Source: Verrucomicrobiales bacterium
Lineage (GTDB): Bacteria > Verrucomicrobiota > Verrucomicrobiia > Verrucomicrobiales > DEV007
Direction of reading: 5' to 3'
NCBI GenBank assembly: GCA_022361255.1
Contig: JAKSBG010000454.1
Location: forward strand, 1 to 46,457
DNA length: 46,457 nt
The position numbers were made by a program, and so were the translations under genes. This document shows positions 3,038 to 41,595 of this stretch, piece after piece. The notes below the pieces were generated by a model. It had not been told where the DNA came from and searched no databases. It worked only from the letters and a program-made list of their open reading frames with translations. The number at the start of each line of letters is the position of its first letter. Position 1 is the stretch's first letter.

Positions 3038-4780
3038 TTATAAATTGCTTAGAATTTCCAGTCTTTTTAGCTTTTTTTGCGAAAAAAGTAGAGGGACAAT
3101 AATTACGGCGAGTGTGAGAAAGAGCAAAAGCCCAATTGCCATTTGGCTTCGCGGCTCCTGAAGCCAAAGCGGGTTGATTTCGTTTTCTTTAAAAATTTCC
3201 CATCTGGAGTAGGCGAGGAGAAGGAGAAATAATAAAATGTAGATAAAACTGCCCACTAGACAGAGAGTTCCTCCGAACCCGCTCACGATCTTCGCGGCAT
3301 TCGATTCTTCAAGATTCGGAAAGAGAACCCCGAGGCCGACGGCGAGTGCATTCAACCCGAAGGTAAGCAGGCCAATGGCCGAGGCGAAAAAGAGTGTGTC
3401 CTGCCATCCCAGCTGCAGGTTGTATCCTCCAATGAGAAGGATCACAATGATCATGAACCCACTGCAGAGAGAACTCATGACGAATTTTTGCAAAACCAGC
3501 GAACTCAACTGAAGAGGTGACATCGCGAGAATCCAGAGCCTCCTTCCTTCGAGGCTGAATTGGGGAAAAACAAACCGGGTTGTGAGAGTCGAGAGCGCGA
3601 GCGCACAAACAGACAAATTCAGAAACGCGACGAGGTAAAGATCCCGCGGAGCGCTGAGATCTCCGTTCATCTGCCGGAGACCGCTCGCGTAGATCGCGAG
3701 AAGTCCAAAGACCAAACCGAACTGGACCCACTGGGCCGGCTCGCGAATGAAGGTGAGAACGTCCTTTCTTGAAATGGCAGCGAGGGGACGTCCAATCAGC
3801 GTCCTGAGAAAAGAAGCGCGGGGGAAATCCCGTCGAACTTGGTCTTGCGATGCGGCCACCCGCCTCTCCCGATTGATGGCGGAAGCGGCTGATTGCTGGA
3901 GGGAGCGGTTCCAGGACCGGTAGAACCAGTGCTTCCCGGCTGAGATGACGAGCAGCCCGGCCATGAGAAAGTGGGAGAACAGAAGGGTGGGGTAGAGCAG
4001 GTTGGAAAAGCTGCGATAGGGGCGTGTCCACTCAATGATTGACCCGGCCAGCCACGTGCTCGGTATCGCGCGATTGATAGAGACATTGGTATGGTGCAGG
4101 ACTTTCTGGAAGGTAAGGGCGGCGCCGAGTCCTGCGTTCTCCGAAATTTCACGATCCTCCAGTGCTGTTTGAATCGCGGATGCCGTCAGAACAGCAGCCG
4201 CTATCGCCAGTCCCCAGGCAAATTGTTTCCGTGTCAGGAAACGCACTGCGGAAATGAGGATCAATGATCCGAGTGCGCTTGCCAGGAGCAAAAACGGGAA
4301 CAAAACGGAAATCACCTTGATGTAAAATAAAGGGGAGACATCCCGTATACCGCCGAAGGCGACGAGAAGAGGCGCGAGTATGAAGACGAGCCCCCAGCTC
4401 GAAAACATGGCCGACTCGAAGCATTTCCAGAGGAAAACGGCCTGGTGCGACACCGGCAGGGTGAGAAGCCACCGTGTGTCGCGATTGCGAAAAAGCGCGA
4501 TGTATCCGGTGACCGCGACCGAAAAGATCAGCATCATCAGGAAGCAGAAGAACATCACATAGATCAGGCGGTCGCTCAGGAGCGCTCCTGCTGCGGGCAG
4601 CTTGGAAACGTACTCGAGCCCTTTCTCAAAAAGCCAGTGCGCCGTAATTGTGTAGGCGGCAAGAAATCCGATGATGGTTGCCGTCATCAGACGTGAGCGC
4701 CCGGCAGCAACGGCGGTTTTCACGCGGAGCATTTTCCAGTGCACGCGAAAGAGCAGAAGCCATTGTTGGAAAGTCGTCAT
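3038..4780 (-). CDS. ABC-2-type permease-like membrane protein
   Basis: About 580 residues with a dozen hydrophobic segments. The sequence resembles large ABC-2 exporter permeases: an N-terminal cytoplasmic helix (FQQWLLLFRVHWKMLRVK), a first membrane helix, then loops such as RNRDTRWLLTLPVSHQAVFLWK, and a second membrane block after about residue 350 (RKDVLTFIREPAQW). Such proteins normally pair with an ATPase, but no ATPase gene lies nearby, so the substrate and partner are unknown. I chose the ATG at 4780 (MTTFQQWLLL) over an upstream GTG at 4846 because the first 22 residues of the longer version look non-coding and run towards the divergent purT promoter region. Confidence 0.75.
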   Translation of the reverse strand: MTTFQQWLLLFRVHWKMLRVKTAVAAGRSRLMTATIIGFLAAYTITAHWLFEKGLEYVSKLPAAGALLSDRLIYVMFFCFLMMLIFSVAVTGYIALFRNRDTRWLLTLPVSHQAVFLWKCFESAMFSSWGLVFILAPLLVAFGGIRDVSPLFYIKVISVLFPFLLLASALGSLILISAVRFLTRKQFAWGLAIAAAVLTASAIQTALEDREISENAGLGAALTFQKVLHHTNVSINRAIPSTWLAGSIIEWTRPYRSFSNLLYPTLLFSHFLMAGLLVISAGKHWFYRSWNRSLQQSAASAINRERRVAASQDQVRRDFPRASFLRTLIGRPLAAISRKDVLTFIREPAQWVQFGLVFGLLAIYASGLRQMNGDLSAPRDLYLVAFLNLSVCALALSTLTTRFVFPQFSLEGRRLWILAMSPLQLSSLVLQKFVMSSLCSGFMIIVILLIGGYNLQLGWQDTLFFASAIGLLTFGLNALAVGLGVLFPNLEESNAAKIVSGFGGTLCLVGSFIYILLFLLLLAYSRWEIFKENEINPLWLQEPRSQMAIGLLLFLTLAVIIVPLLFSQKKLKRLEILSNL

Positions 4781-6221: not shown

Positions 6222-9200
6222 TCAGAAACCGAGGTTGTTCGGTTTGATTGTGCTGGTGGGGCGGCGTTTGACCTGCCGTTTGGTTTTCACCGTTGCGCGA
6301 ACATTGTCCGAGCTGGAGTTCAAAGTTTCTGAAGTTGCTCTGAATATCAGGTGAATCTTTTTCGAGCGGTAAATTGTTGTTTGAGCACTTCTCGAATTCT
6401 TTTGCTTTCGCAGGCGTGATTTTTTAGGTTTTACACGCGAAGATACGGAAGCTGAGAGGTTGGTCGGTGCGGTCCAGTCGGTCAATTGTCTTCCGGTTAC
6501 CAGAGCTGCGGTCACATTGCCGGTCCCGGTTAATTTGTGCTGAACTTTAAAATAGCGATTCCGACGACTCCCTTTGATTCGAAATACGTCAATGACCTCT
6601 CCATCGTTGAAGAGTAACGTTCGTATGGTGACAGGCCGAAGCTTTCGGGATTTTTTTGATCGGGTCTGAGAACCATAGCCCCCGTAAATTGTTCTGCCTT
6701 TTCCGTTAACAGTCAGGTCGGGCTGCAGAAAAGGGAGGTTCACTGCCTCGATATGAAGTTCATACACGCCGGTGCCTGCATTGGAAATTTCCACCTGATA
6801 GGTCCCTGCAGGAAGGGGGACAGAGATTCGGAAATTCTCACCGTTCCCTGCATCGTCATCCTCTTCAGGAGTATTTCTGACAAGGCCACTATCGTCGCGG
6901 AGGACTCCTTTCGTATCTGTGTCGCCGGTTGTGTAAAGGATTGTCACTCTCGGTCTGTCGAGAGTGAAAACGAAGGTGTCCGTGTCACTATCGTGAAAGT
7001 ATCCATCGATACTTCCTATTCCCTCAAGCGAGGGGATAGGAGTAATCATCCCACCGGGAGCATCGTCACGATCTACATCAATGTGGTTGTCAGTGCTCGT
7101 GCTGGAGTTGTTGGTGTTTCCGGCTCTGTCGGTAGCCGACCCAGCCGGAATAGATGCTTTGACATATCCTTCGGCAGACGTTGTTTCGATTTCGATCAGG
7201 TATGTCTCAGGTCCCCCGCTGACAGAAACGGCACCTGCAATTCCGGATGTGGTAACAGATGATGCCATCAAATTAAATACAGGCTCGTTAAACGTTGCAT
7301 CGAACGCAAGAGTTCCGGCAGCTGCGGGATCAGGCTGGGCGCTGCTCTGATTGACGGTTACGGTAGGAGGTGCCGTGTCGACGGTTACTTCCAGAATTCC
7401 CGAAGGGAGAGAAGTGTTGCCGGCTGCATCCGTTGCGGTGGCGGAAAGATGGTGAATGCTATCCGATAGACTGGATGCGGTGATGGTCCAGGGGCTGTTT
7501 GCCAAGATGGACCCGACGGAGTCTGCTCCTGAAAAGAGGGTAACCAGAGAATCCGCCTCGGCGTCCCCGGATACAGTCGGGGTATTATCCGAAGTAACAT
7601 TGTCGTTATCGGATATCCCACTGTCACTTGAGCTGAGGAGGTCAATAGCTGTCGGTGCGTCCGGTGCCGTAATGTCGATTTCTATGGAAAGGCTGCCGCT
7701 GGTGGCATCATCTGCTCCTGAACGGGACGTTATCTGGTGTTGGCCTTCGCTGAGATCCTGGTTGGTCTCCGCAAGGATCCAGCTGCCGTCGGTAGCAGTG
7801 AACGCTGTACCAAGATCCCCGTTCAGGGAGCTGGACAATACTACAACGGTTCCCGGCGTAGCTGTGCCGAAAAACGATGGCCTTGTCACGTTAGACAGAT
7901 TATCGCTCTCGGAGCGACCCGAGTCCGACATAGTATCCAGGTCGGGTACTCCGGGAGCAGGGGGGAACGCATTGGGAGCGCCCGGAGTCGGAGCTGCAGC
8001 AAGGAAGTGGGACGAAACGCGTGATCCACCTTCGCCGTCAGGCATGCGCTGCAGGGACTGGCCACCCCGAAACCCGTTGGCACTTTCATCGAGATGAGGC
8101 TCGCCGGGAAGAAGGAGGCTGGCCAGAATCGTTCCTGTCGCTTCTCCTTCCGGCACAGACACCACGGCATCGAGTAGATTGTTCGAGGTTGCCGGTAGAT
8201 TTGAATCCACCGGAAAATCAGTGTCATTTCCCCTGTAAAGAGCAACCGCATCGCGCCCGTTTCGAATCGAGTTGGGCGGAACCACCATGTCCACGCCTGC
8301 AACGTCTGCATTTCCCACAAGAAAATATCCATTTTCATCAGTTACCCGGCCGTCGAGGTCGACTGCGAGGTAGACTTGTTCCGTATCGCCGCGATAGAAA
8401 ACGAGGACATAGCCATCAAGTGCGGTGCTTCCGCTTCCGCCATCCCAGAGTTCTACGAACTCGAGGTCTGTTGTCGTGTCAGAATCGACTTCATTGATCA
8501 GGACGGGAATGTCTTCCAGCAAGAGGGTCAGATCGTATTCCCCGGTTTGGGCACTGCCTTCGCTGCTAATGATGAGGGTGTAGGTTCCCGGCGCAAGCAC
8601 TTCCGAGATCCGAAAATTCTCTCCGGCTCCGGCGTCACGATCCACTTCTGCGTCGTTGATCTGGACGGCTCCTGATCCTTGCAGCACACCCCGGGTGTTG
8701 ACCGGGCCAGTCGTCTGTGCCGTAAGGATTTTTGGTGCGGTGATCGTAAAAGTGAACACATCCGAGTCGCCCGGTTCGAGCCATCCTGTAGCGGTTGAAC
8801 TGTCACCGGTAAAGGTCATTTCCGTAGGGTTGTCGGAGCGGTGGACATCGAGAGAAACGGAAGTATCTCCAAGCGTTGGCGCGGCACTGGGGTTGCCAGC
8901 GAGATCGGTGGCGGCAGCGGCCCCGACGGTTGCGGTCACGGTTCCTTCGGCTTTGCTGGTCGAAACGGAAACGGTGAATACAGTCGGCCCCCCGCCGACG
9001 GATGCCGCGTTGGCAGCTGAGCCACCCACGGTGATGTCGGAACTCCCGAATCCGTCAACGACTTCACTGAAGGTGGCAGTAAATGAAACGGGTCCCGTCG
9101 TTGCGGGATCGTTCTGCCCCGATGCTTTGCCGAAGGCGAGTGAAGGAGAAGTCGTATCGATCGTCACAGGTAATACCGTGCTTTTTGCCGAAGTATTCCC

Positions 9201-12200
9201 CGCTACATCCGTCGCCGTCGCCGAGATCGAGTGCACCGCGTCGGAGAGGGGGGAACTGGTCAGGTTCCAGGAGCCGGTTGAGGAGCCGTTGGCAATCGCT
9301 TCGCTGGCGGAGAAAAGCGTAACAGTAGCACCGTTTTCCGCCGTTCCTGAAAAGCCGGGCGTATTGTCGTTGGTGAGGTCGTCATTTGGCGATACGCCGG
9401 AGTCAGTCAGCAGATCGGGCATCGACGGAGCGGCGGGTGCGACGGTGTCGATCATGATCGTGAGCGCAGAACTGGTCGGCGAAACATTTCCTGCGGCATC
9501 CGTAGCATTGGCAGTGATGCTGCGCGCGCCGTCTGCGAGGGCCGGGGATGTGATGCTCCAGTTGCCGTTCGAAAGGCCGGTGCTGACGGCGTTTCCGTCG
9601 GAGAAAAGGTTCACATCAGCACCGTTTTCCGCTGTGCCGGAAAACGTCGGCGTATTGTCTGCAGTAATATTGTCTGTATCGGAAATCCCCGAATCGCTGG
9701 CAGCCAATAGGTCGGGCGTTCCCGGCGCTACCGGAGCAGTGATGTCGATCTCAATCAACAAAGCAGTGCTTGCGCTGGACGTGTTTCCTGCGACGTCGGT
9801 GGCAGTAGCAGTGAGTGAAACGTTGCCCTCGGGAAGCGAAGAAGTGGCTACGCTCCAGGTGCCATTGCTGGTAGTCGTAGCAACCGGGGTGGCCCCGTTG
9901 GAAAGCGCAATCGATGCCAGATTTTCGGCAGTTCCGTTGATAATTGGGGTCCGCACATTGGTGAGGTCATCACTGTCGGATCGTCCCGAGTCGCTTGCCT
10001 GTGCGAGGTCGAGAACAGTGGGGGCTTCCGGCGCGGTAAAGTCGAAGGTGACAATGAGTCCGCCGGACGGGGGAGAGACATTACCGGCAGGGTCGGTCGC
10101 GGTCGCGATAACGGAATAACTTCCTTCGACCGCGTTCAGGGAAGTAATGCCCCATGTGCCATTAGATGAACCGCTTCCGATGTTCCCGTCAGCGCTTGAT
10201 CCGGAACGCACCAGGGTCACGGAGGTATCGGCGTCGGCTGTTCCCGTGAAGGTAGGATTGGTCGACCTGGTCGTATTGTCAGAATCCGAGGCGCCGCTGT
10301 CACTGGCTGAAGTGAGGTCCGGGATCGACGGAGCGTTTGGAGCGGTCGTGTCGATTTGTATCGTCAGAGTGGCACTGGCATCGCCACCATCCGCAGAGGC
10401 GGAGAGGACGTGGGTGCCGTCGGCAAGTGCATTGCTTGTGACGCTCCAAACGCCTGCGGCGTTCACCACTCCCGTTCCGAGATTGACATCGTTTGCGTCA
10501 ACGAGTGTAACGAGCGAACCGGGCCGCGCCGTTCCTGTAATAGTCGGCGTATTGTCATTGGTGAGATCGTCGGAGTTTGAACTTCCTGAGTCGCTCGCGT
10601 CGGTGAGATCGAGGTTGAGCGGAGCAGGGGGCAGGGTGTTCGCCGCGCCGGGTGTGGGGGAGAAGGCGGAGAAACTTGCTGCTGTGCGGGGGCTGCCTCC
10701 GCCATTAGGGAAGCGTTGGAGGGAGTGACCAGTTGCATTGCCGGCCGCCGCTTCGTCAAGCGGGGCACCGACGAAGCCGAGCGCGGTCGCAAGCGCCGCA
10801 CCGTCTCCCTGGCCAGACCCGTGAACGACGGCATCGACCAGGCTGTCGGTGGTAGCGGCGGTTCCGTTCGGAAAATCGGTGGAAGGCAACTGGTGAATAG
10901 CGACGGCGTCTTCGCCGCTCTGCAGGAATCCGTCCGGAAGGACCAGATCGGCCTCCGATACTGCGGCGGTGCCGATCACGAAATACCCGTTTGCGTCGGT
11001 GGTCTTGCCGGTCAAGTCGATCGAGCGATAGCTTTCGCCATCCGCGCCGTCATAGAGGACAACCGAAAAGTCGTCAAGCGCGGTGGTTCCGCTTCCCCCG
11101 TCGAATAGCTCGATGAACTGGCGTTCGCCGCCGTTTCCGGTGATGGCATCGGTCTCGTTGATCAGGACACGGTTGGAGACATTCGCGGTCGCGAAGTTAT
11201 TGTCCTCATCCCATTCCGGGACGCCCTGGTTGGCATCGATCCACACGGTCAGGTCATCGGCTCCGTTGACCATGAAGTCGGTCAGGGTGACTACTGCGGT
11301 GTCTCCTTTGAGGATGTCGAATGTATAGGGAATCCCCACCTGGATGCCCCCGTTCAACGGGTCGCCGTTGTAGAACTTCAACTGGACATCCGTGTAGTCG
11401 TTGGTCGATTGGTCGTCGCTCTTGATCGTCACATGCAGGTCCGCCTTCACATTGGGATCAATGTTCGATGCGAAAAACCTCTGCACCGACAAGTCCGTCC
11501 CCGAGACAATGATGTCCGCATATGCCGTGTTCACACTTGTTTTACCTCCGTCGGTCACACCGGCCGTCACCTGCAGGCCGACCTGACCCACATACTCGCT
11601 GGTGTAGGTTACCTGAGGATTCACCCCGAAGGCGTCCCCATAGTTCCCGTCTCCATCGGTATCCCAGCTGTACAAAATGATCTCATCCCCATCCGCATCA
11701 TAGGAAGCCGATCCGTCCAGGGTGATGGGCTGGTTCACCCGACCGGAATAGACTCCGTTCGGGATCGGCACAGCAACCGGGGCAACATCCGTATCCACGA
11801 CTTCGACCTCGATGGTGTAGGTGTCGTAAAACGCCGGGTCGCCGCTGTCTTTGACCCGCAGGGTGACCACGTAGGTCCCGACGGTATCGTATCCCGGATT
11901 GGTCACGTTCAGGCCACTCGCGTCGGGATTGTCCCAATCCACTCCGTCGGTATCGTCGAAGTCCCATTGGTATTCGATAATGCTGGCGTTCGGATCGAGG
12001 TGATAGGACTCTTCACCCGTCATTTGAAATGCCCTTGCCAGCGGTTTGTTGCTCTGCTGACCCACCGGGGTGATGATCGAAACCGGTCGGGGGCGGGGCA
12101 GGGAGCGCGTGAGCATGAGGATCCCCATGGCGGTATTCATGTCCTGTGAAGAGAAAAACGAACCTGGATATTCCGCTGAGTTCGACCACGAACCATCGGC

Positions 12201-13757
12201 CTGCTGACCGAACATGTGACCCGCGGAACGCTCAGTCGGATTGATCGTTGCAGGCAACTGGGCCGCATCTCCCAGCAACCAGAGGTCAACGTCGTTTTGC
12301 CAGTCCCTCTCCCCGATCGAGGTGTCGAGGCGATCGATCTCTTGGAGATACATGCCCCGTTTCACCGAGTACATAGAATACCAATTACCAAAAACACCAC
12401 CTTCAGTATCCGACCCCCATTGATAGGGGTTCGTATAATTGTTTCCAATAAAGCCCACCGCACGACTCACGTTTGTTTGCGCGGTGTCAGTGTCCAAGGT
12501 GTAGCCTCCGAGCTTGTAGGCACCCAATGCACCGCCTGTTTTTGCGGTGTTGACCCACCTTGTACTTGAGCTGTATCCGATTCCACCGTTCTGATTTTGC
12601 CTCTGTGTGAAGTACCCGATACACATTCGATCCACCACCCAGGCGGGAGGATTGATCCCCCAGAGATCCCGGGCGGACTCCAAAAAAAAGGCAATCCATT
12701 GAGTAGCAGACCCATCGAACCCAGAGGTGCTAGACGTGGTGTTCATCGAATACGCCCATCCTCCCCAGGTTGGCTGGTCACTTTGGCAGTAGGCGAACTG
12801 ATCCACCAAATCGGCAACCAGGGAATAGTAGGTTCTCCCCGCCAGGGGCCCCGACTGCACCGTTCGCGCCTGCGCTCCGGCGATGGATTTTTCTGCGGCC
12901 ACGAGGGCTAGGCCTACGTAAGCATTCGCATACGTATCGTGACCAACGTTAGAAATAATCACTCCTTTCCCGTTTCCATTGCCATCCGGGTTCCCATGGG
13001 TCTGATTGGAGATCGTTGTCTCAAGGCCAACATAGGTCAGCCATTCAAGGCCTTTTTCAACCACGTCGCTGTAGATATCGAGTTCCCGATCGTTGGCTGG
13101 CAAATGCCCGTTTTGCTCAAAGGCAAGAATGACAGCAGAGGATGCCCCCATCGCATAGTAATTTCTCGAAGTGCCGGACCCCTCCCAATACACAAGCTCA
13201 TTTCCTTGATCAGTGGTTTCAACTCTCTCTCGATACAAATACAGCTTCGCCTTCGAAACCGCCATGTTCACCTTCTGCTCGTGCGTGGGATCAATAATGG
13301 CGCGTATCACACCGGAGCGGGAAGCGGTATCCCCGTTGTTGTCGGTCACCGTCAGCGTAAAGGTTTTCAACCCAGCGGTCGTGTAGGTGTGAACTGCCGA
13401 GATCTCGTCCGGATCTGTGACGGCCCCGCTCTGCACCGGAGATCCGTCACCAAAGTCCAGGGTGTAGGTGTAGGGCGCGGCTCCATCGAAGGTCCTCCCC
13501 CAGACGGTGATCGGTTGTCCCACCTCCGCATTGGCGTAAATCGACAGCTGGGTGTAGCTGGGCATGACAGCAACCTTCGGTGCTGCCATGACGCTGCCGC
13601 CGATGCCCGGCAGAAGAGAAAGCAATACCAGGGGGAGAATGGATCGCTTCCGTGCCGCTGGTGCACTGCTACTGCGCGTTGAACGCGAATGCCCGAAGCG
13701 GGACCGGATGGAACGGAACAGGCGTTCCCGGCTTCCGGGACAATTCGAATTTTTCAT
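6222..13757 (-). CDS. Giant secreted multidomain protein: PKD, prenyltransferase-like toroid, lamin-tail-like, Ig-like and PPC-like repeats
   Basis: 2511 residues. A long basic N-region (about 38 residues) precedes a hydrophobic signal core (SILPLVLLSLLPG) and an AxA-type cleavage site (VMAAP). The order, in approximate residues, is PKD domain 65-150; alpha/alpha toroid with prenyltransferase/squalene-cyclase-type repeats 160-545 (QNGGIGYSS, QQADGSWSN); two more PKD domains 575-752; CARDB-like domain 760-860. Module A follows: lamin-tail-like (VLINETDA) 862-1040, five BapA-type Ig-like repeats (DNTPTFSGTAENG) 1049-1535, an ATFSEVVDGF-type Ig domain, and a PPC-like beta domain near 1655. Module B repeats this order from 1750 (lamin-tail-like, two Ig-like, Ig, PPC-like). 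The last 170 residues are rich in Lys/Arg/Ser. It is probably a surface or extracellular adhesion or matrix protein; no catalytic residues can be asserted. No outer-membrane barrel or sorting signal is evident. Confidence 0.9.
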   Translation of the reverse strand: MKNSNCPGSRERLFRSIRSRFGHSRSTRSSSAPAARKRSILPLVLLSLLPGIGGSVMAAPKVAVMPSYTQLSIYANAEVGQPITVWGRTFDGAAPYTYTLDFGDGSPVQSGAVTDPDEISAVHTYTTAGLKTFTLTVTDNNGDTASRSGVIRAIIDPTHEQKVNMAVSKAKLYLYRERVETTDQGNELVYWEGSGTSRNYYAMGASSAVILAFEQNGHLPANDRELDIYSDVVEKGLEWLTYVGLETTISNQTHGNPDGNGNGKGVIISNVGHDTYANAYVGLALVAAEKSIAGAQARTVQSGPLAGRTYYSLVADLVDQFAYCQSDQPTWGGWAYSMNTTSSTSGFDGSATQWIAFFLESARDLWGINPPAWVVDRMCIGYFTQRQNQNGGIGYSSSTRWVNTAKTGGALGAYKLGGYTLDTDTAQTNVSRAVGFIGNNYTNPYQWGSDTEGGVFGNWYSMYSVKRGMYLQEIDRLDTSIGERDWQNDVDLWLLGDAAQLPATINPTERSAGHMFGQQADGSWSNSAEYPGSFFSSQDMNTAMGILMLTRSLPRPRPVSIITPVGQQSNKPLARAFQMTGEESYHLDPNASIIEYQWDFDDTDGVDWDNPDASGLNVTNPGYDTVGTYVVTLRVKDSGDPAFYDTYTIEVEVVDTDVAPVAVPIPNGVYSGRVNQPITLDGSASYDADGDEIILYSWDTDGDGNYGDAFGVNPQVTYTSEYVGQVGLQVTAGVTDGGKTSVNTAYADIIVSGTDLSVQRFFASNIDPNVKADLHVTIKSDDQSTNDYTDVQLKFYNGDPLNGGIQVGIPYTFDILKGDTAVVTLTDFMVNGADDLTVWIDANQGVPEWDEDNNFATANVSNRVLINETDAITGNGGERQFIELFDGGSGTTALDDFSVVLYDGADGESYRSIDLTGKTTDANGYFVIGTAAVSEADLVLPDGFLQSGEDAVAIHQLPSTDFPNGTAATTDSLVDAVVHGSGQGDGAALATALGFVGAPLDEAAAGNATGHSLQRFPNGGGSPRTAASFSAFSPTPGAANTLPPAPLNLDLTDASDSGSSNSDDLTNDNTPTITGTARPGSLVTLVDANDVNLGTGVVNAAGVWSVTSNALADGTHVLSASADGGDASATLTIQIDTTAPNAPSIPDLTSASDSGASDSDNTTRSTNPTFTGTADADTSVTLVRSGSSADGNIGSGSSNGTWGITSLNAVEGSYSVIATATDPAGNVSPPSGGLIVTFDFTAPEAPTVLDLAQASDSGRSDSDDLTNVRTPIINGTAENLASIALSNGATPVATTTSNGTWSVATSSLPEGNVSLTATATDVAGNTSSASTALLIEIDITAPVAPGTPDLLAASDSGISDTDNITADNTPTFSGTAENGADVNLFSDGNAVSTGLSNGNWSITSPALADGARSITANATDAAGNVSPTSSALTIMIDTVAPAAPSMPDLLTDSGVSPNDDLTNDNTPGFSGTAENGATVTLFSASEAIANGSSTGSWNLTSSPLSDAVHSISATATDVAGNTSAKSTVLPVTIDTTSPSLAFGKASGQNDPATTGPVSFTATFSEVVDGFGSSDITVGGSAANAASVGGGPTVFTVSVSTSKAEGTVTATVGAAAATDLAGNPSAAPTLGDTSVSLDVHRSDNPTEMTFTGDSSTATGWLEPGDSDVFTFTITAPKILTAQTTGPVNTRGVLQGSGAVQINDAEVDRDAGAGENFRISEVLAPGTYTLIISSEGSAQTGEYDLTLLLEDIPVLINEVDSDTTTDLEFVELWDGGSGSTALDGYVLVFYRGDTEQVYLAVDLDGRVTDENGYFLVGNADVAGVDMVVPPNSIRNGRDAVALYRGNDTDFPVDSNLPATSNNLLDAVVSVPEGEATGTILASLLLPGEPHLDESANGFRGGQSLQRMPDGEGGSRVSSHFLAAAPTPGAPNAFPPAPGVPDLDTMSDSGRSESDNLSNVTRPSFFGTATPGTVVVLSSSLNGDLGTAFTATDGSWILAETNQDLSEGQHQITSRSGADDATSGSLSIEIDITAPDAPTAIDLLSSSDSGISDNDNVTSDNTPTVSGDAEADSLVTLFSGADSVGSILANSPWTITASSLSDSIHHLSATATDAAGNTSLPSGILEVTVDTAPPTVTVNQSSAQPDPAAAGTLAFDATFNEPVFNLMASSVTTSGIAGAVSVSGGPETYLIEIETTSAEGYVKASIPAGSATDRAGNTNNSSTSTDNHIDVDRDDAPGGMITPIPSLEGIGSIDGYFHDSDTDTFVFTLDRPRVTILYTTGDTDTKGVLRDDSGLVRNTPEEDDDAGNGENFRISVPLPAGTYQVEISNAGTGVYELHIEAVNLPFLQPDLTVNGKGRTIYGGYGSQTRSKKSRKLRPVTIRTLLFNDGEVIDVFRIKGSRRNRYFKVQHKLTGTGNVTAALVTGRQLTDWTAPTNLSASVSSRVKPKKSRLRKQKNSRSAQTTIYRSKKIHLIFRATSETLNSSSDNVRATVKTKRQVKRRPTSTIKPNNLGF

Positions 13758-17752: not shown

Positions 17753-18018
17753 CAAAGCACGAATGGAGTGACCGGGCGGAAGACGGGGAAAAAATGTATT
17801 TCCGTGCGACAATACACGCGGGGAGATGGGAGTTTTTCTCGACCAGAAAGTCTGATCCGGACTGGGAGCAACACGAGATTCTCGATCTGGAAAAAATGGA
17901 GCGTTTTCGGGAAGTTCTGTGGAATAAGCACCTTCGCCGTCGTGCTCCGCTCAAGCATGTAGACCAGATCGATGAGATGATTGAGCGTCTTCGCCTCGAG
18001 GCGCCGCCGGGGGAATAA
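17749..18018 (+). CDS. Small conserved-looking hypothetical protein coupled to hisC
   Basis: 89 residues, highly charged and aromatic (MTKHEWSDRAEDGEKMYFRA then GRWEFFSTRKSDPDWE), with no membrane segment or cysteine. I do not recognise the family. The four-base overlap with hisC and a consistent coding pattern argue that it is real. The repeated HRAxxxGxxWxF-like strand pattern suggests a small alpha/beta fold. Its 3' UTR carries the first ACAGGGTT triad and a strong terminator. Confidence 0.75.
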   Translation: MTKHEWSDRAEDGEKMYFRATIHAGRWEFFSTRKSDPDWEQHEILDLEKMERFREVLWNKHLRRRAPLKHVDQIDEMIERLRLEAPPGE

Positions 18019-18040
18019 TTTCCCGCTTTTGTCCGGTTCA

Positions 18041-18092
18041 ACAGGGTTTGGAGGAGCTTTCAACAGGGTTGAATCGTGGATCAGACAGGGTT
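18041..18092 (+). repeat. ACAGGGTT triad, locus 1 (22-nt period)
   Basis: Three perfect ACAGGGTT octamers start at 18041, 18063 and 18085, each exactly 22 nt after the previous one. The 14-nt spacers are unrelated to each other. The triad begins 22 nt after the stop codon of the 89-residue gene and ends 8 nt before a terminator stem. It shares motif, spacing, strand sense and 3' location with two other loci in this window. Confidence 0.9.
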
Positions 18093-18100
18093 GAAACAAA

Positions 18101-24479: not shown

Positions 24480-25175
24480 TTACACAAGTCCTGCTTCCCG
24501 AAAGCTGAAATACGGTTCCTCCATCGATTCTGAGGGCTGACCGATGATGATGTGATCGGTAAACTCAATTCCCACCGCGTCACAGGCATCCCGCATTCTT
24601 CTGGTGATTCTCCGGTCAGCTTCACTGGGAGAAGGGTCTCCGGAGGGATGGTTGTGAACGAGAATCATGGCCGAAGAGGCGTGGTTCAAGGCCTTGCGTA
24701 GAACTTCAGCGGGATTGCAGAACGATTCATTGCCGGTTCCGCGAAACACCTCCGCGATGTGGATGAGGCGTTTGCGGTGATTGAGAAGGATGACCCGGAC
24801 GGATTCCTGATCCAACAGCTGCATGTCCGGTCCCATGATGGAATAGACATCCTCCGGTCCGGTAATGGACTCTTCGCGGTAGGGTTCGCGGGCGAGACGT
24901 TTGCCAAACTCAAAAACGGCAGCCAGCTGCGCCGCTTTTGCCGGCCCTATCCCGTCAATCGCGATCAGTTCCTCCACGGTGGCCCGTGACAGATTGCGCA
25001 GGCTGCCGAAGTGCCGGATCATTTCCCGTCCCAGATCGACCGCACTCATGCCCTGGCGACCGGTGCCGAAGAAAACGGCAAGAATCTCCGCATCGCTGAG
25101 ATACGTCGCTCCTTTCTCCGCAATTTTTTCTCGGGGTCGTTCGTCTTCGGGGAGGTCTTTGATTCGAAGGGCCAT
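24480..25175 (-). CDS. radC: RadC family JAB/MPN-domain protein
   Basis: 231 residues, full length for the family. The N-terminal helix-hairpin-helix part (GIGPAKAAQLAAVFEFGKRL) is followed by the RadC/JAB domain with the metal-binding motif HNHPSGDPSPSEAD at about 173. JAB proteins have a metalloprotease-like fold; the role of RadC is unsettled and the early DNA repair assignment is doubtful. The opening IKDLPEDERPREKIAEKGA is typical. It is divergent from mnmE (108-base spacer) and heads a likely radC-lpxA-lptD unit. Confidence 0.93.
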   Translation of the reverse strand: MALRIKDLPEDERPREKIAEKGATYLSDAEILAVFFGTGRQGMSAVDLGREMIRHFGSLRNLSRATVEELIAIDGIGPAKAAQLAAVFEFGKRLAREPYREESITGPEDVYSIMGPDMQLLDQESVRVILLNHRKRLIHIAEVFRGTGNESFCNPAEVLRKALNHASSAMILVHNHPSGDPSPSEADRRITRRMRDACDAVGIEFTDHIIIGQPSESMEEPYFSFREAGLV

Positions 25176-25283
25176 GGGGAGGGCTGGGCATCTTGGGAAA
25201 AAATGGAGGGATGTGCAATCTCAATCCGGATTCGCAAAAATTCCCCTTCACTGTTACCGGTTCGCGACTTACCTGTTTCCACT

Positions 25284-26630
25284 TTGAATTCCCAGTCCAC
25301 CATTGTTGCTCTTGCTTCTCCACCCGGAGTTGGCGCTGTCGGTTTGTTGCGTATCAGCGGACCGGATGCGGCAAAGATCTCATCTTCCACCTTTCAGGGA
25401 AGAAAGCGGGATCGTTGGGTGGCGCGAACGCAGCACCTTGGGAGAATTGTCGATGCCGCCGGGGAAACGATCGACGAAGTATTGCTGACCTGGTTTCCCG
25501 GGCCCGCCAGCTTCACCGGGGAGGAAATCGTCGAGATCGCCTGCCATGGGGGAGTCGTGGTGACAGGACGACTTTTGAACCGCTTTCTCGAAGCCGGGTG
25601 CGAACCGGCTGAGCCGGGCGAATTTTCCCGCAGAGCTTTTGAGAATGGTCGGCTGGACCTTACTCAGGCGGAGGCGATTATGGATCTTATTTCCGCTCAG
25701 ACTGAGCTGGCGGCGAGGGCGGCCAATGAGCAACTTTCCGGCAGGCTGGGGGAGGCGATCGAGGCAATTCGAAAGGATCTCATCGGACTCACCGCTCACC
25801 TTGAAGCCTACATTGATTTCCCGGAAGAGGATATCGATCCCGATTCTGCGGAGGCTTTGGAGAACCGTGGAAAAGAAATCCTTTCGGCGATCGATAAACT
25901 GCTTTCAACCGCAGACCAGGGACGCGTCTTGCGGGAGGGACTCCGCACCGTTATTGCGGGGGCACCGAACGCCGGTAAATCGAGTTTACTCAATCTCTTG
26001 CTCGGTTTCGACCGGGCCATTGTCAATGAACAGGCCGGGACGACGCGCGACACAATTGAAGAGGTGATCAACCTGGAGGGAATCCCGATTCGACTCATCG
26101 ATACGGCAGGGATCCGTGAAAGTGGCGAAGCGATCGAAAGTCAGGGAATTGAGCGGAGCCGCGAGCAGATTGCGAGGGCGGAACTAGTGCTCCAGATCAT
26201 CGATGGAAGCGCTCCTGAATCTTCCGCACGGGCCGTCGAGATTCCGGAGGGAACCCGCGTTTTGCGAATTCTGAACAAATCCGATCTCCCGCGTCATGCG
26301 GACTGGGAAGGGGATGAAGCGATCTCTATCTCGTGCCATGCCGAAGGTGCCGCTGCGGAGATTCGAAAACAACTGCATGCGTTTCTCACGCGGAAGGGCG
26401 CCGTTTCGAGCACCAGCCTCGCTGCTATCAATGCCAGGCACCAGCACTGCCTGCTCCGGGCAAAAGAGAATCTCGAACGTGCTCTCGAAAATCTCGCGGC
26501 GCATGAATCTCCCGAATTTATCGCTCTGGACCTGAGGGCCACACTCGACGCCGTCGGTGATGTCGTTGGCAAAACAGACGTGGAGGAAATCCTCGGTGAA
26601 ATTTTCTCGACTTTCTGTATCGGAAAGTGA
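25284..26630 (+). CDS. mnmE: tRNA modification GTPase MnmE
   Basis: 448 residues, normal for the family (454 in E. coli). With MnmG it makes the 5-carboxymethylaminomethyl group on wobble uridine of certain tRNAs. The N-terminal folate-binding domain opens STIVALASPPGVGAVGLLRI. The G domain has GAPNAGKSSLLN at about 225, DTAGIR near 272 and NKSD near 330. The protein ends in FCIGK, with the conserved C-terminal cysteine. No ATG fits the N-terminus: the best start is TTG at 25284, giving M(L)NSQSTIV; longer in-frame versions are antisense to radC and lack homology. The 3' UTR holds the second ACAGGGTT triad and a terminator. Confidence 0.93.
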   Translation: MNSQSTIVALASPPGVGAVGLLRISGPDAAKISSSTFQGRKRDRWVARTQHLGRIVDAAGETIDEVLLTWFPGPASFTGEEIVEIACHGGVVVTGRLLNRFLEAGCEPAEPGEFSRRAFENGRLDLTQAEAIMDLISAQTELAARAANEQLSGRLGEAIEAIRKDLIGLTAHLEAYIDFPEEDIDPDSAEALENRGKEILSAIDKLLSTADQGRVLREGLRTVIAGAPNAGKSSLLNLLLGFDRAIVNEQAGTTRDTIEEVINLEGIPIRLIDTAGIRESGEAIESQGIERSREQIARAELVLQIIDGSAPESSARAVEIPEGTRVLRILNKSDLPRHADWEGDEAISISCHAEGAAAEIRKQLHAFLTRKGAVSSTSLAAINARHQHCLLRAKENLERALENLAAHESPEFIALDLRATLDAVGDVVGKTDVEEILGEIFSTFCIGK

Positions 26631-26667
26631 GAAGCGGGACCGGCAACCGCTTTTCCCATGTGCCCTG

Positions 26668-26719
26668 ACAGGGTTTGCTCTGCCACCGGACAGGGTTCGG
26701 TCCGCGATCCAACAGGGTT
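26668..26719 (+). repeat. ACAGGGTT triad, locus 2 (22-nt period)
   Basis: Perfect ACAGGGTT octamers start at 26668, 26690 and 26712, exactly 22 nt apart, with unrelated 14-nt spacers. The first starts 37 nt after the mnmE stop, and the last ends 22 nt before a terminator stem. Motif, period and orientation relative to the upstream gene match locus 1. Confidence 0.9.
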
Positions 26720-26741
26720 TGGTGCTGCTTTCGAGACACAA

Positions 26742-26792: not shown

Positions 26793-28055
26793 TCAGCCAA
26801 AGATGCTGGTGACCGGCTTGCCTTTGTCCGCAAAGGTAAAGGGGCGCTGGGTCGGTGAGTAAACCGTCTCTTCGAGCGGAAGCCCGAGGCCGTAACCGAT
26901 CGTAGCGAGGAAGTCCTCTGGCTTGACCGGATTGCTGCGGACTTTTTTACCGCTTCCGTCGGTTTCTCCGTAGACGGTTCCACCTTTGACGCCACCTCCG
27001 GCAAGAACGCAGGAGTAGGCAGCGGGGTAATGATCGCGTCCACCATTCATGTTGATGTCAGGTGTCCGGCCAAATTCGGTTCCGATGGCGACCATTGTTG
27101 TCTCGAGCAGCCCCTTGGATTCGAGATCTTTCAGGAGAGTCGCGACAGCTTTGTCGAGCTCTGGAAGCTTGCTGGCGGTTCCGGAACTGACGTCGACGTG
27201 CATATCCCATCCACCGGAAATCACTTCCACCACGCGTACGCCGTTCTCGACGAGTTTGCGGGCGAGCAGGCAGCCCTGCCCGAGTCGTCCGGTGCCGTAG
27301 TCGGAGGCGTTGGACTCACCGGAAATGTCGAAGGCGGAAAGCTCATCACTTTTGAGAAGCTTGTTGGCCTGGTTGTAGTATTCAACATAGGACTCCGGTC
27401 CGCTGTATTTGAACTTGCTGGTGAACTGTTGGCCGAGTTTGGATGCCATCTCCATGCGACGGTCAAAACGGTCGCCGGCAACTGCGAGCTCCGTGTTGGG
27501 AACGCCGCCTCCGGGATCAGCGATGGGAAGCGGGGAGAGGCGAGGCTCCATGAAACCGGCGTTGGACGTGCTCTGTCCAACGACCACAGAGTCGGGGAGG
27601 ACTCGACCGCTTTCCCCGAGGAGAGTGGCTGCCCAGGGGCCGACGGTGGGGTGAACGATGGTGGCACGTTTTTCGTAGCCGGTTCGCATGATGTACTGAC
27701 CCTGCTCATGAGCACCCTGTGTGGATGTCATTGAGTTGATCACAGCAAGTTTGTCTGCCAGCTTGCTGAGTTCTTTCATGTGCATTCCCATCTTCATATT
27801 GTCGACGGGAGTGTCGAGAAGCTCGGTGTCGCCCATGACGCCGCTGTTTTTCTTGGCGTCAAAGGTGTCGAGGTGAGTCATCCCCCCGGAGAGGTAGATG
27901 TAGATCAGGTTCTTGGCGGTGCCGCCCTCCGCTTTCAGATTGCGGGGCAGGAAGGGGACGCTGAGTCCCACTCCGAGTGACAGCTTGGCCGACAACTCCA
28001 TGAAGTAACGGCGGCTCAGGGGATCTTTACCGGCGATTTCTGCGATATTGTCCAT
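26793..28055 (-). CDS. DUF1501 family protein
   Basis: 420 residues. The N-terminus has a twin-arginine-type motif (SRRYFMELS, about 14-22) followed by a hydrophobic stretch (LSLGVGLSVPFLP), so export by Tat is likely. The body shows DUF1501 hallmarks: YIYLSGGMTHLDTFDAK, RTGYEKRATIVHPTVGPW, GTEFGRTPDINMNGGRDHYP and SCVLAGGGVKGGTVYGETD. The fold is related to alkaline phosphatase/sulfatase enzymes, but the activity is not established. It follows the DUF1549/DUF1553 gene by 52 bases; the two families occur together very often in Planctomycetes and Verrucomicrobia and probably form one exported complex. Confidence 0.9.
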   Translation of the reverse strand: MDNIAEIAGKDPLSRRYFMELSAKLSLGVGLSVPFLPRNLKAEGGTAKNLIYIYLSGGMTHLDTFDAKKNSGVMGDTELLDTPVDNMKMGMHMKELSKLADKLAVINSMTSTQGAHEQGQYIMRTGYEKRATIVHPTVGPWAATLLGESGRVLPDSVVVGQSTSNAGFMEPRLSPLPIADPGGGVPNTELAVAGDRFDRRMEMASKLGQQFTSKFKYSGPESYVEYYNQANKLLKSDELSAFDISGESNASDYGTGRLGQGCLLARKLVENGVRVVEVISGGWDMHVDVSSGTASKLPELDKAVATLLKDLESKGLLETTMVAIGTEFGRTPDINMNGGRDHYPAAYSCVLAGGGVKGGTVYGETDGSGKKVRSNPVKPEDFLATIGYGLGLPLEETVYSPTQRPFTFADKGKPVTSIFG

Positions 28056-40536: not shown

Positions 40537-40833
40537 CTACTGCGTCGGCATGGTTTCAAAAGCACCTTGAGAGGCCGCTCCGCCGACTATCGCCGCGATA
40601 AAGATGAAGTAGATCACCGCAAAAACGAGACCAAGAGCGAGCAGAATCACGGAGATGATGCCACAGATCTTCCCGGCGTTTGCCTGACCGAGACCTTCCG
40701 GGTCCATGGTTCCGGCTTCCATTTTCGGGATATCCTTGTTCGCCATGACCCAGGCAATGATGCCGCAAATCTGACAGAGTACGATTCCGAGAATTCCAAG
40801 GACGAGAATTGTTGTTCCACGATGAGGTTCCAT
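40537..40833 (-). CDS. DUF4190-like small membrane protein
   Basis: 98 residues with two transmembrane helices (TTILVLGILGIVLCQICGII and CGIISVILLALGLVFAVIYF) joined by a short polar loop (MANKDIPKMEAGTMDPEGLG). The layout with a repeated xGIxGxxxxx helix start matches DUF4190 proteins. No function is known. ATG 40833 (MEPHRGTT) is chosen over 40881. It lies 10 bases upstream of the DUF2752 gene and probably shares its transcript with the tct genes. Confidence 0.8.
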   Translation of the reverse strand: MEPHRGTTILVLGILGIVLCQICGIIAWVMANKDIPKMEAGTMDPEGLGQANAGKICGIISVILLALGLVFAVIYFIFIAAIVGGAASQGAFETMPTQ

Positions 40834-40913
40834 AACGGGGAAAGTGTTTCGCAAGCCGGTCGCTTCGTCAATCGTATTCACGCGAAATCGGCGTGATAGA
40901 CGGGACGGGGATC

Positions 40914-40965
40914 AACCCTGTTAGATGAGTAACCATACCCTGTCAGGTAGGCGAACCAACCCTGT
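40914..40965 (-). repeat. ACAGGGTT triad, locus 3 (22-nt period)
   Basis: On the minus strand the octamers are ACAGGGTT (40965-40958), ACAGGGTA (40943-40936) and ACAGGGTT (40921-40914), exactly 22 nt apart. The first begins immediately after the TAA of the LON-domain gene. A hairpin TCACGC/GCGTGA (40878-40896) follows 17 nt later, without a T-run. It matches loci 1 and 2 in period, orientation and 3' position. Confidence 0.88.
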
Positions 40966-41595
40966 TTACTCCTTCGCGAGAAGCAGGCTGAGTCGGTCGG
41001 ATAGGTAGCGAAGCCGCCCCGACACGTCGAGAGTTTCGAGAAGGTGCTGGCGCTCGCCGGGGTCGTGAAGAAAGGCATGGGAGACCACGTCGGCTATCGC
41101 GGCAGGATCGCTTACACTTGCAAGGTGGTCGCTCAGCTGGTTGGACATCGGTTTTCCCTCCCCGCAAAGCTTGCGGGAAAGGTCGATTACCTCGAGGGCG
41201 GCCTCGACGGCAACATCCGGATCATCGACGCGCGAGGGAAGGGGGAGGACAGTGGCCACCCGGAAGGGGTGATGTTGCTCGAAGCCCAGAATTTCCACGC
41301 GCTGCAGTCCCGAGAGCATAAGGTGGGACGTCCCGTCCGGATGAGTGACACACGCGCGGATCAGTCCAATTGTGGAAATCCGGTGAACGGGGTCTTCGCT
41401 GAGGTCGGTGTCGATGTCCGGCAGGGCGTGACCAATGCAGAACATCCGGTGCCGCTCAAGGCAATAGGAAAGCATGTCCCGGTAACGCTGCTCGAAAAGG
41501 AACAGTGGCATGTAGCTATGCGGAAACAACGTGGCACCTCCCAGCACCATTACCGGTGCTGTGTCAGGTATTTCCGCTGGTTCATCATCGTCCAT
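40966..41595 (-). CDS. LON substrate-binding domain protein
   Basis: 209 residues consisting of the N-terminal LON domain alone (PVMVLGGATLFPHSYMPLFL, EQRYRDMLSYCLERHRMFCI, GLIRACVTHPDGTSHLMLSG, LQRVEILGF) plus a helical C-terminus. There is no ATPase or protease domain, so it is not a Lon protease. Stand-alone LON-domain proteins are common in bacteria and their role is unclear; substrate or peptide binding is likely. It is divergent from rpsO. The stop codon is directly followed by an ACAGGGTT triad. Confidence 0.9.
   Translation of the reverse strand: MDDDEPAEIPDTAPVMVLGGATLFPHSYMPLFLFEQRYRDMLSYCLERHRMFCIGHALPDIDTDLSEDPVHRISTIGLIRACVTHPDGTSHLMLSGLQRVEILGFEQHHPFRVATVLPLPSRVDDPDVAVEAALEVIDLSRKLCGEGKPMSNQLSDHLASVSDPAAIADVVSHAFLHDPGERQHLLETLDVSGRLRYLSDRLSLLLAKE

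Follow-up and report, generated by a model that had tools for sequence, protein, structure and literature searches.

Evenly spaced arrays of palindromic sites in 22-bp phase on the chromosomes of one Verrucomicrobiales family

The window, i.e. the whole 46,457-nt stretch of DNA that was analysed, is contig C382 of a 5.85-Mb genome in 548 contigs (G000). It contains three arrays of short palindromic sites, which are listed here together with an example of a site core.

18035 to 18097, plus strand: array 1, three sites, centres at 18044, 18066 and 18088, orientation +++
26662 to 26724, plus strand: array 2, three sites, centres at 26671, 26693 and 26715, orientation +++
40909 to 40971, minus strand: array 3, three sites, centres at 40918, 40940 and 40962, orientation ---
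18040 to 18048, plus strand: example of a site core, AAC-AGG-GTT, part of a 19-bp quasi-palindrome

For array 1, a stop codon (at 18018) lies 21 nt upstream and a hairpin with a T-run lies downstream. Array 2 is flanked by the convergent genes mnmE (25011-26630, plus strand) and DUF1501 (26793-28055, minus strand). Array 3 begins at the stop codon of a gene encoding a LON-substrate-binding domain (40966-41595, minus strand) and is followed by a gene at 40537-40881 (minus strand). The window also holds an open reading frame of 2511 amino acids (6222-13757, minus strand), exceptionally long for this stretch.

The original prediction described three triads of an octamer repeated every 22 nt. All of their positions were confirmed: ACAGGGTT starts at 18041, 18063 and 18085 (plus strand), the second triad at 26668, 26690 and 26712 (plus strand), and the third at 40914, 40936 and 40958 on the minus strand, its middle copy being ACAGGGTA. 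The exact three-hexamer pattern had 3 matches in the window and, when up to 3 mismatches were allowed, there were 4 matches against 0.02 expected after shuffling. The genome-wide scan was also above chance, the pair ACAGGG-N16-ACAGGG being present 311 times in G000 and its reversed control 0 times. In 754 kb of this genome, the distances between ACAGGG copies on the same strand peaked at 22 bp (68 pairs) and 44 bp (24 pairs), and copies on opposite strands shared the 22-bp phase when their offsets were measured from the dyad centre. At its core, each unit reads AAC-AGG-GTT on one strand or the other. Flipped centres (AACCCTGTT) are about as common as ACAGGG, and a search restricted to ACAGGG misses many arrays. 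With at least 7 of 9 matches required at each site, 67 chains were found in G000 at a spacing of 22 bp, compared with 1-9 at eight control spacings of 17-27 bp. The proposal that both the motif and its phase are under selection was upheld.

Of the 67 arrays of G000, 60 are triads, six are pairs and one consists of five sites. The triad form described from the window is therefore the rule in this genome, but it does not extend to G012 and G007, where two sites are usual; the number of sites depends on the species, three being usual elsewhere only in some species. Overall, an array comprises two to four sites and spans 41-75 bp. The five-site array (L192:10454) is made of identical units and represents a recent tandem expansion. 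It is the one exception to the earlier conclusion that the arrays are neither CRISPRs nor recent tandem duplications, a conclusion that agrees with their two to four units, flipping cores and loose dyad spacers.

A logo of 62 arrays gave as consensus site a 19-bp quasi-palindrome, GAyyyAAC-AGG-GTTrrrTC. The outer sides of the arrays also bear half-sites, as seen in the G000 logos and more clearly still in G433, and no conservation was found beyond these outer half-sites in the G000 logos. As a result of this arrangement, successive C-NNN-G dyads are 11 bp apart on one DNA face, in the form of AC-NNN-GT at the centres and TC-NNN-GA midway. The spacers, which had been described as free, in fact hold a dyad (TTgRgTC-NNN-GAyYcAA) midway between the centres, and only its middle three bases are free. 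These features fit the suggestion that, read as DNA, the 22-bp period corresponds to two helical turns and places the sites on one face. Orientations are mixed within triads, though uniform triads are favoured (25 of 60; chi-square P 0.005), and the simplest account of the centres that have flipped between species would be small inversions inside the palindromes. Isolated perfect sites are nearly absent: in G025, only 2 of 139 lacked a partner at 22 bp.

Plasmid iterons and ParR/parC repeats are bound cooperatively along one helix face, and their period, close to two helical turns (22 bp) or a single one (11 bp), is like that of the arrays. Iterons, however, are direct repeats at a single plasmid locus, whereas the arrays are present by the hundreds on chromosomes and their units flip. 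Two further identities were rejected. Sequences from G000 resemble integron core sites (RYYYAAC/GTTRRRY), but the GTACArTC dialect of G025 does not. The I-SceI site shares AACAGGGTA with this same dialect but has a different symmetry centre, and we take the resemblance as a coincidence.

Gene calling relied on a simple hexamer model, by which about 90% of the sequence is coding. The arrays were mostly intergenic and avoided divergent promoters: per kb of intergenic DNA, convergent gaps held 1.00 arrays, tandem gaps 0.84 and divergent gaps 0.31. The proposed location 3' of genes was borne out in tandem gaps, where the upstream stop was the nearer gene end for 50 of 64 arrays (P = 7e-6) at a median distance of 13-23 nt, though some arrays lie inside genes. 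The samples of G000 and G025 contained 11 and 10 such in-gene arrays, respectively, on either strand and mostly in apparent linkers, e.g. that of MutL; a few of these in-gene chains may be due to chance. The arrays in the aldehyde dehydrogenase (ALDH) and TrpF genes are made up of native codons; neither inspection nor alignment with orthologs showed an insertion, and these arrays appear to have arisen in place. The MutL linker carries arrays in two species (L343:5022-5100 in mutL of G007; L180:16639 in mutL of G000). In the G007 gene, two pairs of sites lie 34 bp apart, outside the 22-bp phase, and make up two arrays in one gene.

The location of arrays directly past stop codons, together with the 8-bp hairpins that may form across the spacer midpoint, would be compatible with a function as RNA, either as a 3'-UTR element bound by a protein or a small RNA or as an array of hairpins linked to terminators. 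This should make the strand of the arrays depend on that of the gene. Yet the sense-strand orientation noted at the three loci of the window did not hold genome-wide, no strand bias being observed: of the G000 arrays, 8 were sense, 18 antisense and 2 of mixed orientation, and the numbers for G025 were 14, 16 and 6, respectively, i.e. 22 sense, 34 antisense and 8 mixed for the two genomes pooled. Similarly, the stem-loop said to follow every triad was visible by eye after loci 1 and 2, but a terminator-like hairpin followed the array at only 2 of 95 array-bearing 3' ends genome-wide, so that stem-loops are not a general feature and intrinsic terminators are not associated with the arrays. In permutation tests, Watson-Crick and wobble pairs were no more frequent than expected at the arm positions, across either the centre or the spacer midpoint; weak signals were found solely at +8/+14 and +10/+12 in G025. 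No match to the array was found in Rfam. Strand independence, absence of covariation, lack of a link with terminators and the presence of in-gene arrays on both strands contradict the RNA reading, which we regard as very improbable.

The main new finding, which had not been foreseen, is that the arrays are evenly spaced along the chromosome. In all five species tested, spacing was far more even than expected by chance, under null models that hold the number of arrays per contig fixed. The 37 gaps of G000 had a mean of about 9.5 kb and a CV of 0.47. The null CVs amounted to 0.77 when arrays were dealt among intergenic regions and 0.83 for uniform placement, and 0 of 2000 simulations were as even; furthermore, no gap was shorter than 2 kb, against 6-7 expected. 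For G025, the mean gap was 8.5 kb and the CV 0.41 versus 0.74 expected (0 of 3000 simulations). Among the matches listed for each of the next three genomes, gaps averaged 47 kb in G012 (CV 0.68 versus 0.91 expected, P 0.02), 27 kb in G007 (CV 0.52 versus 0.90, P 0.004) and 9.6 kb in G433, which belongs to another genus (CV 0.41 versus 0.87, 0 of 20000), the latter showing no gap below 3 kb against 8 expected. Two pattern matches of G012 (contigs C1 and C3) in which the AGG core was not matched were dropped by hand; in G433, matches with an ACCGGGT core were retained in the gap statistics.

This evenness bears on two further explanations. Arrays in which quasi-palindromes of about 19 bp lie three in a row on one helix face could serve as operators for a global transcription factor. 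The operators OR1-OR2-OR3 of phage lambda, three adjacent quasi-palindromes slightly over two helical turns apart that bind dimers cooperatively, are indeed similar in layout and spacing. They serve one promoter region, however, whereas the arrays occupy hundreds of mostly non-promoter places. Depletion from divergent promoter regions, the greater proximity of stops than of starts and the even spacing along the chromosome, which operators would not be expected to display, make this quite improbable.

The other explanation is that the arrays are remnants or immunity marks of a transposon of the Tn7/Mu type, the ends of which carry 22-bp transposase sites. Target immunity, by which old copies repel new ones, would produce even spacing, and the period of the sites, their number (two to four per array), the strong avoidance of close neighbours and the turnover between species all agree with this. 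Yet neither spacers nor flanks are shared between arrays, nothing is conserved past the outer sites, and the mixed orientations of the centres do not form inverted termini. In addition, the ALDH and TrpF arrays consist of native codons with no evident insertion, and 2.9 million viral contigs yielded a single match. Taken together, these observations render a transposon origin improbable. REP/BIME and Rickettsia palindromic elements are also palindromic, mostly intergenic and 3' of genes, variable in copy number and in some cases located within genes. The arrays share with them their palindromic nature, their mostly intergenic location 3' of genes and a copy number that varies strongly between relatives. 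The copies of those elements, in contrast, derive from insertion or transposase activity and share sequence, whereas the arrays have unrelated spacers and flanks, are evenly spaced and display no evident insertion in the in-gene cases checked. A mobile palindromic element (REP, MITE or RPE) was rejected on the grounds of the unshared spacers and flanks and of the ALDH and TrpF arrays, in which no insertion was apparent. An autonomous mobile element was also rejected for two close arrays, 2.57 kb apart, in L333, as the genes between them resemble those for an ordinary transporter and a hydrolase, with no transposase. A viral carrier was rejected with 1 and 0 matches in the 2.9 million viral contigs; the sole array of this collection lies within a gene (L357, IMGVR_UViG_3300035698_019880, 4684-4712), on a contig that may be misassigned bacterial DNA.

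When 240 genomes of the order were scanned with a pattern that disregards the centre, carriers were confined to three genera of one family. The number of ideal pairs per genome was 0-444 in g1, the genus of the window, 86-573 in g209 and 134-270 in g212, and 0-1 in all remaining genera of the order, roughly 15 of which belong to the same family. A scan of 387 genomes from across the phylum revealed no arrays elsewhere. Among named public contigs, those with triads were largely Verrucomicrobiales MAGs, and the scattered matches in other phyla may be chance or simple repeats. Even congeners differ in density, from near zero up to one array per 9 kb; G010, G011, G022 and G030 are array-poor species. 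Lineages have dialects around a common AGG core: GTACArTC in G025, TTAGGTC in G012 and G007, GTTC in genus g212 and GATCGG in genus g209, in which ACCGGGT is possibly a second core allele. Two adjacent arrays of G433, 75 bp apart (L362:1429 and 1504), have the variant cores AAGAGGGTT and AACCGGGTT.

Comparison of species indicated both turnover of arrays and partial conservation of their positions. In G026 (about 80% identity), array 1 of the window is represented by a degenerate version and array 2 is absent; in G002, array 2 is degenerate. The mnmE intergenic locus is longer than its array-free orthologs, and small local gains of sequence may have contributed there. G000 and G012, which are about 74% identical, both had an array at 3 of 5 comparable places, compared with about 2.4% expected (P ~1e-4), one of these places lying within the aldehyde dehydrogenase gene. 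In the MutL linker, G000 and G007 both had an array, while the other comparable places of G007 had none. By eye, cores were better kept than spacers and flanks in interspecies alignments.

These findings suggest that the arrays are clustered double-stranded DNA sites for one putative sequence-specific protein, most likely a chromosome-organising one (nucleoid-associated or domain-defining), a reading to which we give slightly less than an even chance. More tentatively, they could form a system of landmarks, in which the putative protein would read arrays of two to four sites that selection holds at a near-constant distance (about 10 kb in dense species) and so delimit evenly sized domains. Dimers would occupy the two or three sites next to one another along one face of the helix, with cooperative binding, and an isolated site would not work, which would account for the rarity of such sites. 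The AGG/CCT centres would flip through small inversions within the palindrome, and these flips would be tolerated because the proposed protein contacts the arms symmetrically. An array too near another one would be redundant and lost; selection would therefore keep about one array per domain, i.e. per 9-10 kb in dense species and per 27-47 kb in others.

Phasing on one face, rarity of isolated sites, outer half-sites and tolerance of flips make a cooperative binding platform the best-supported reading. The even spacing, the avoidance of promoters and the retained positions suggest that its role may be structural and chromosome-wide. On the other side, the wide range of densities among congeners, from almost no arrays to one per 9 kb, would be strange for an architectural system that is essential, molecular drive can also yield even spacing, and the conservation of position is based on few comparable loci (G000 versus G012, n = 5).

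Uptake sequences spread by such a drive are the strongest rival to the architectural reading. In that case a receptor of naturally competent cells would recognise the arrays, molecular drive would accumulate them, sites closer to each other than the typical imported fragment would add nothing, resulting in even spacing, and arrays would vanish in lineages that lose competence. In-gene arrays that evolved in place without insertion, a constant core with dialects that differ by lineage, the excess of arrays close to the 3' ends of genes, evenness in all species tested and large differences in copy number between species would all be accounted for. Known uptake sequences are 9-12 bp long and present in the order of a thousand copies or more. 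The arrays resemble the DUS of Neisseria and the USS of Pasteurellaceae as genome-wide motifs with dialects, which evolve in place inside genes, are common near gene ends and are candidates for drive. DUS and USS are, however, short single sites and much more numerous, whereas the arrays are 41-75 bp long, palindromic and multi-site. A short isolated motif would be expected for uptake, in contrast to the near absence of isolated perfect sites in G025 (2 of 139), and the phase-locked form with two or three sites rather resembles cooperative binding inside the cell. The arrays are also unlike known uptake sequences in being palindromic, 3'-biased and evenly spaced: the latter are mostly not inverted repeats, have no bias for locations downstream of genes and are less even than compaction sites would be (PMC1939737). 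The multi-site, palindromic form of the arrays weakens this rival, as does this published description. Our literature search found no paper joining Verrucomicrobia, natural competence and uptake sequences. We consider uptake as unlikely, though a serious candidate.

Returning to the architectural reading, we looked for the cognate protein. A single copy of ParB_N was found in nearly all genomes, whether or not arrays were present, with no paralog that tracked the arrays. A ParB/Noc-type protein is therefore unlikely. Lone arrays in array-poor genomes were considered as a possible operator of the cognate gene, but their neighbours are unrelated metabolic or metal-resistance genes. The sites for SlmA, Noc, MatP (matS) and ParB (parS) are palindromic double-stranded DNA sequences, tens to hundreds per chromosome, found in and between genes and non-mobile. 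The arrays are similarly dispersed, palindromic and kept in place. They differ from these single sites in that each array combines two to four sites locked in phase at 22 bp, and in that the arrays are evenly spaced genome-wide.

Both leading readings, dispersed architectural sites and uptake sequences, belong to known kinds, and the array departs in tested features from each specific family that was considered. The statement that no element of this form had been described stands as far as the open literature that we searched is concerned. The element is real, reproducible, restricted to one family and unusually even in its spacing; its function is what we infer.

Bacterial chromosomes are thought to be split into supercoil domains of about 10 kb, and we know of no dedicated, evenly spaced sequence that marks them. 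If the landmark reading is true, the chromosomes of one Verrucomicrobiota family would consist of evenly sized, sequence-marked domains and, with a landmark every 9-10 kb, the size and control of domains would become directly testable by mapping one protein. If the arrays are uptake sequences, a phased form with several sites would be a novelty among these, and it would suggest that competence drives genome evolution in a phylum that has received little study. Under either reading, they mark out, in each genome, hundreds of positions at which present annotation shows nothing.

Some regions depart from the density of their genome. The first 135 kb of contig C2 of G007 (1-135000) have no array, while the other 320 kb have thirteen at regular distances; this region may be an island or an array-free part of the chromosome. 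Conversely, the 7-Mb genome G027, otherwise nearly array-free, has four matches about 10 kb apart on one 21-kb stretch (C50:240559-261095; L317), which also has a metal-efflux operon and a sigma factor and resembles a segment acquired by import from a relative rich in arrays. Five arrays of the g209 GATC dialect are present within 39 kb of contig C14 of G015 (6306-44838), a genome with few others, and this stretch is likely an imported island or a plasmid.
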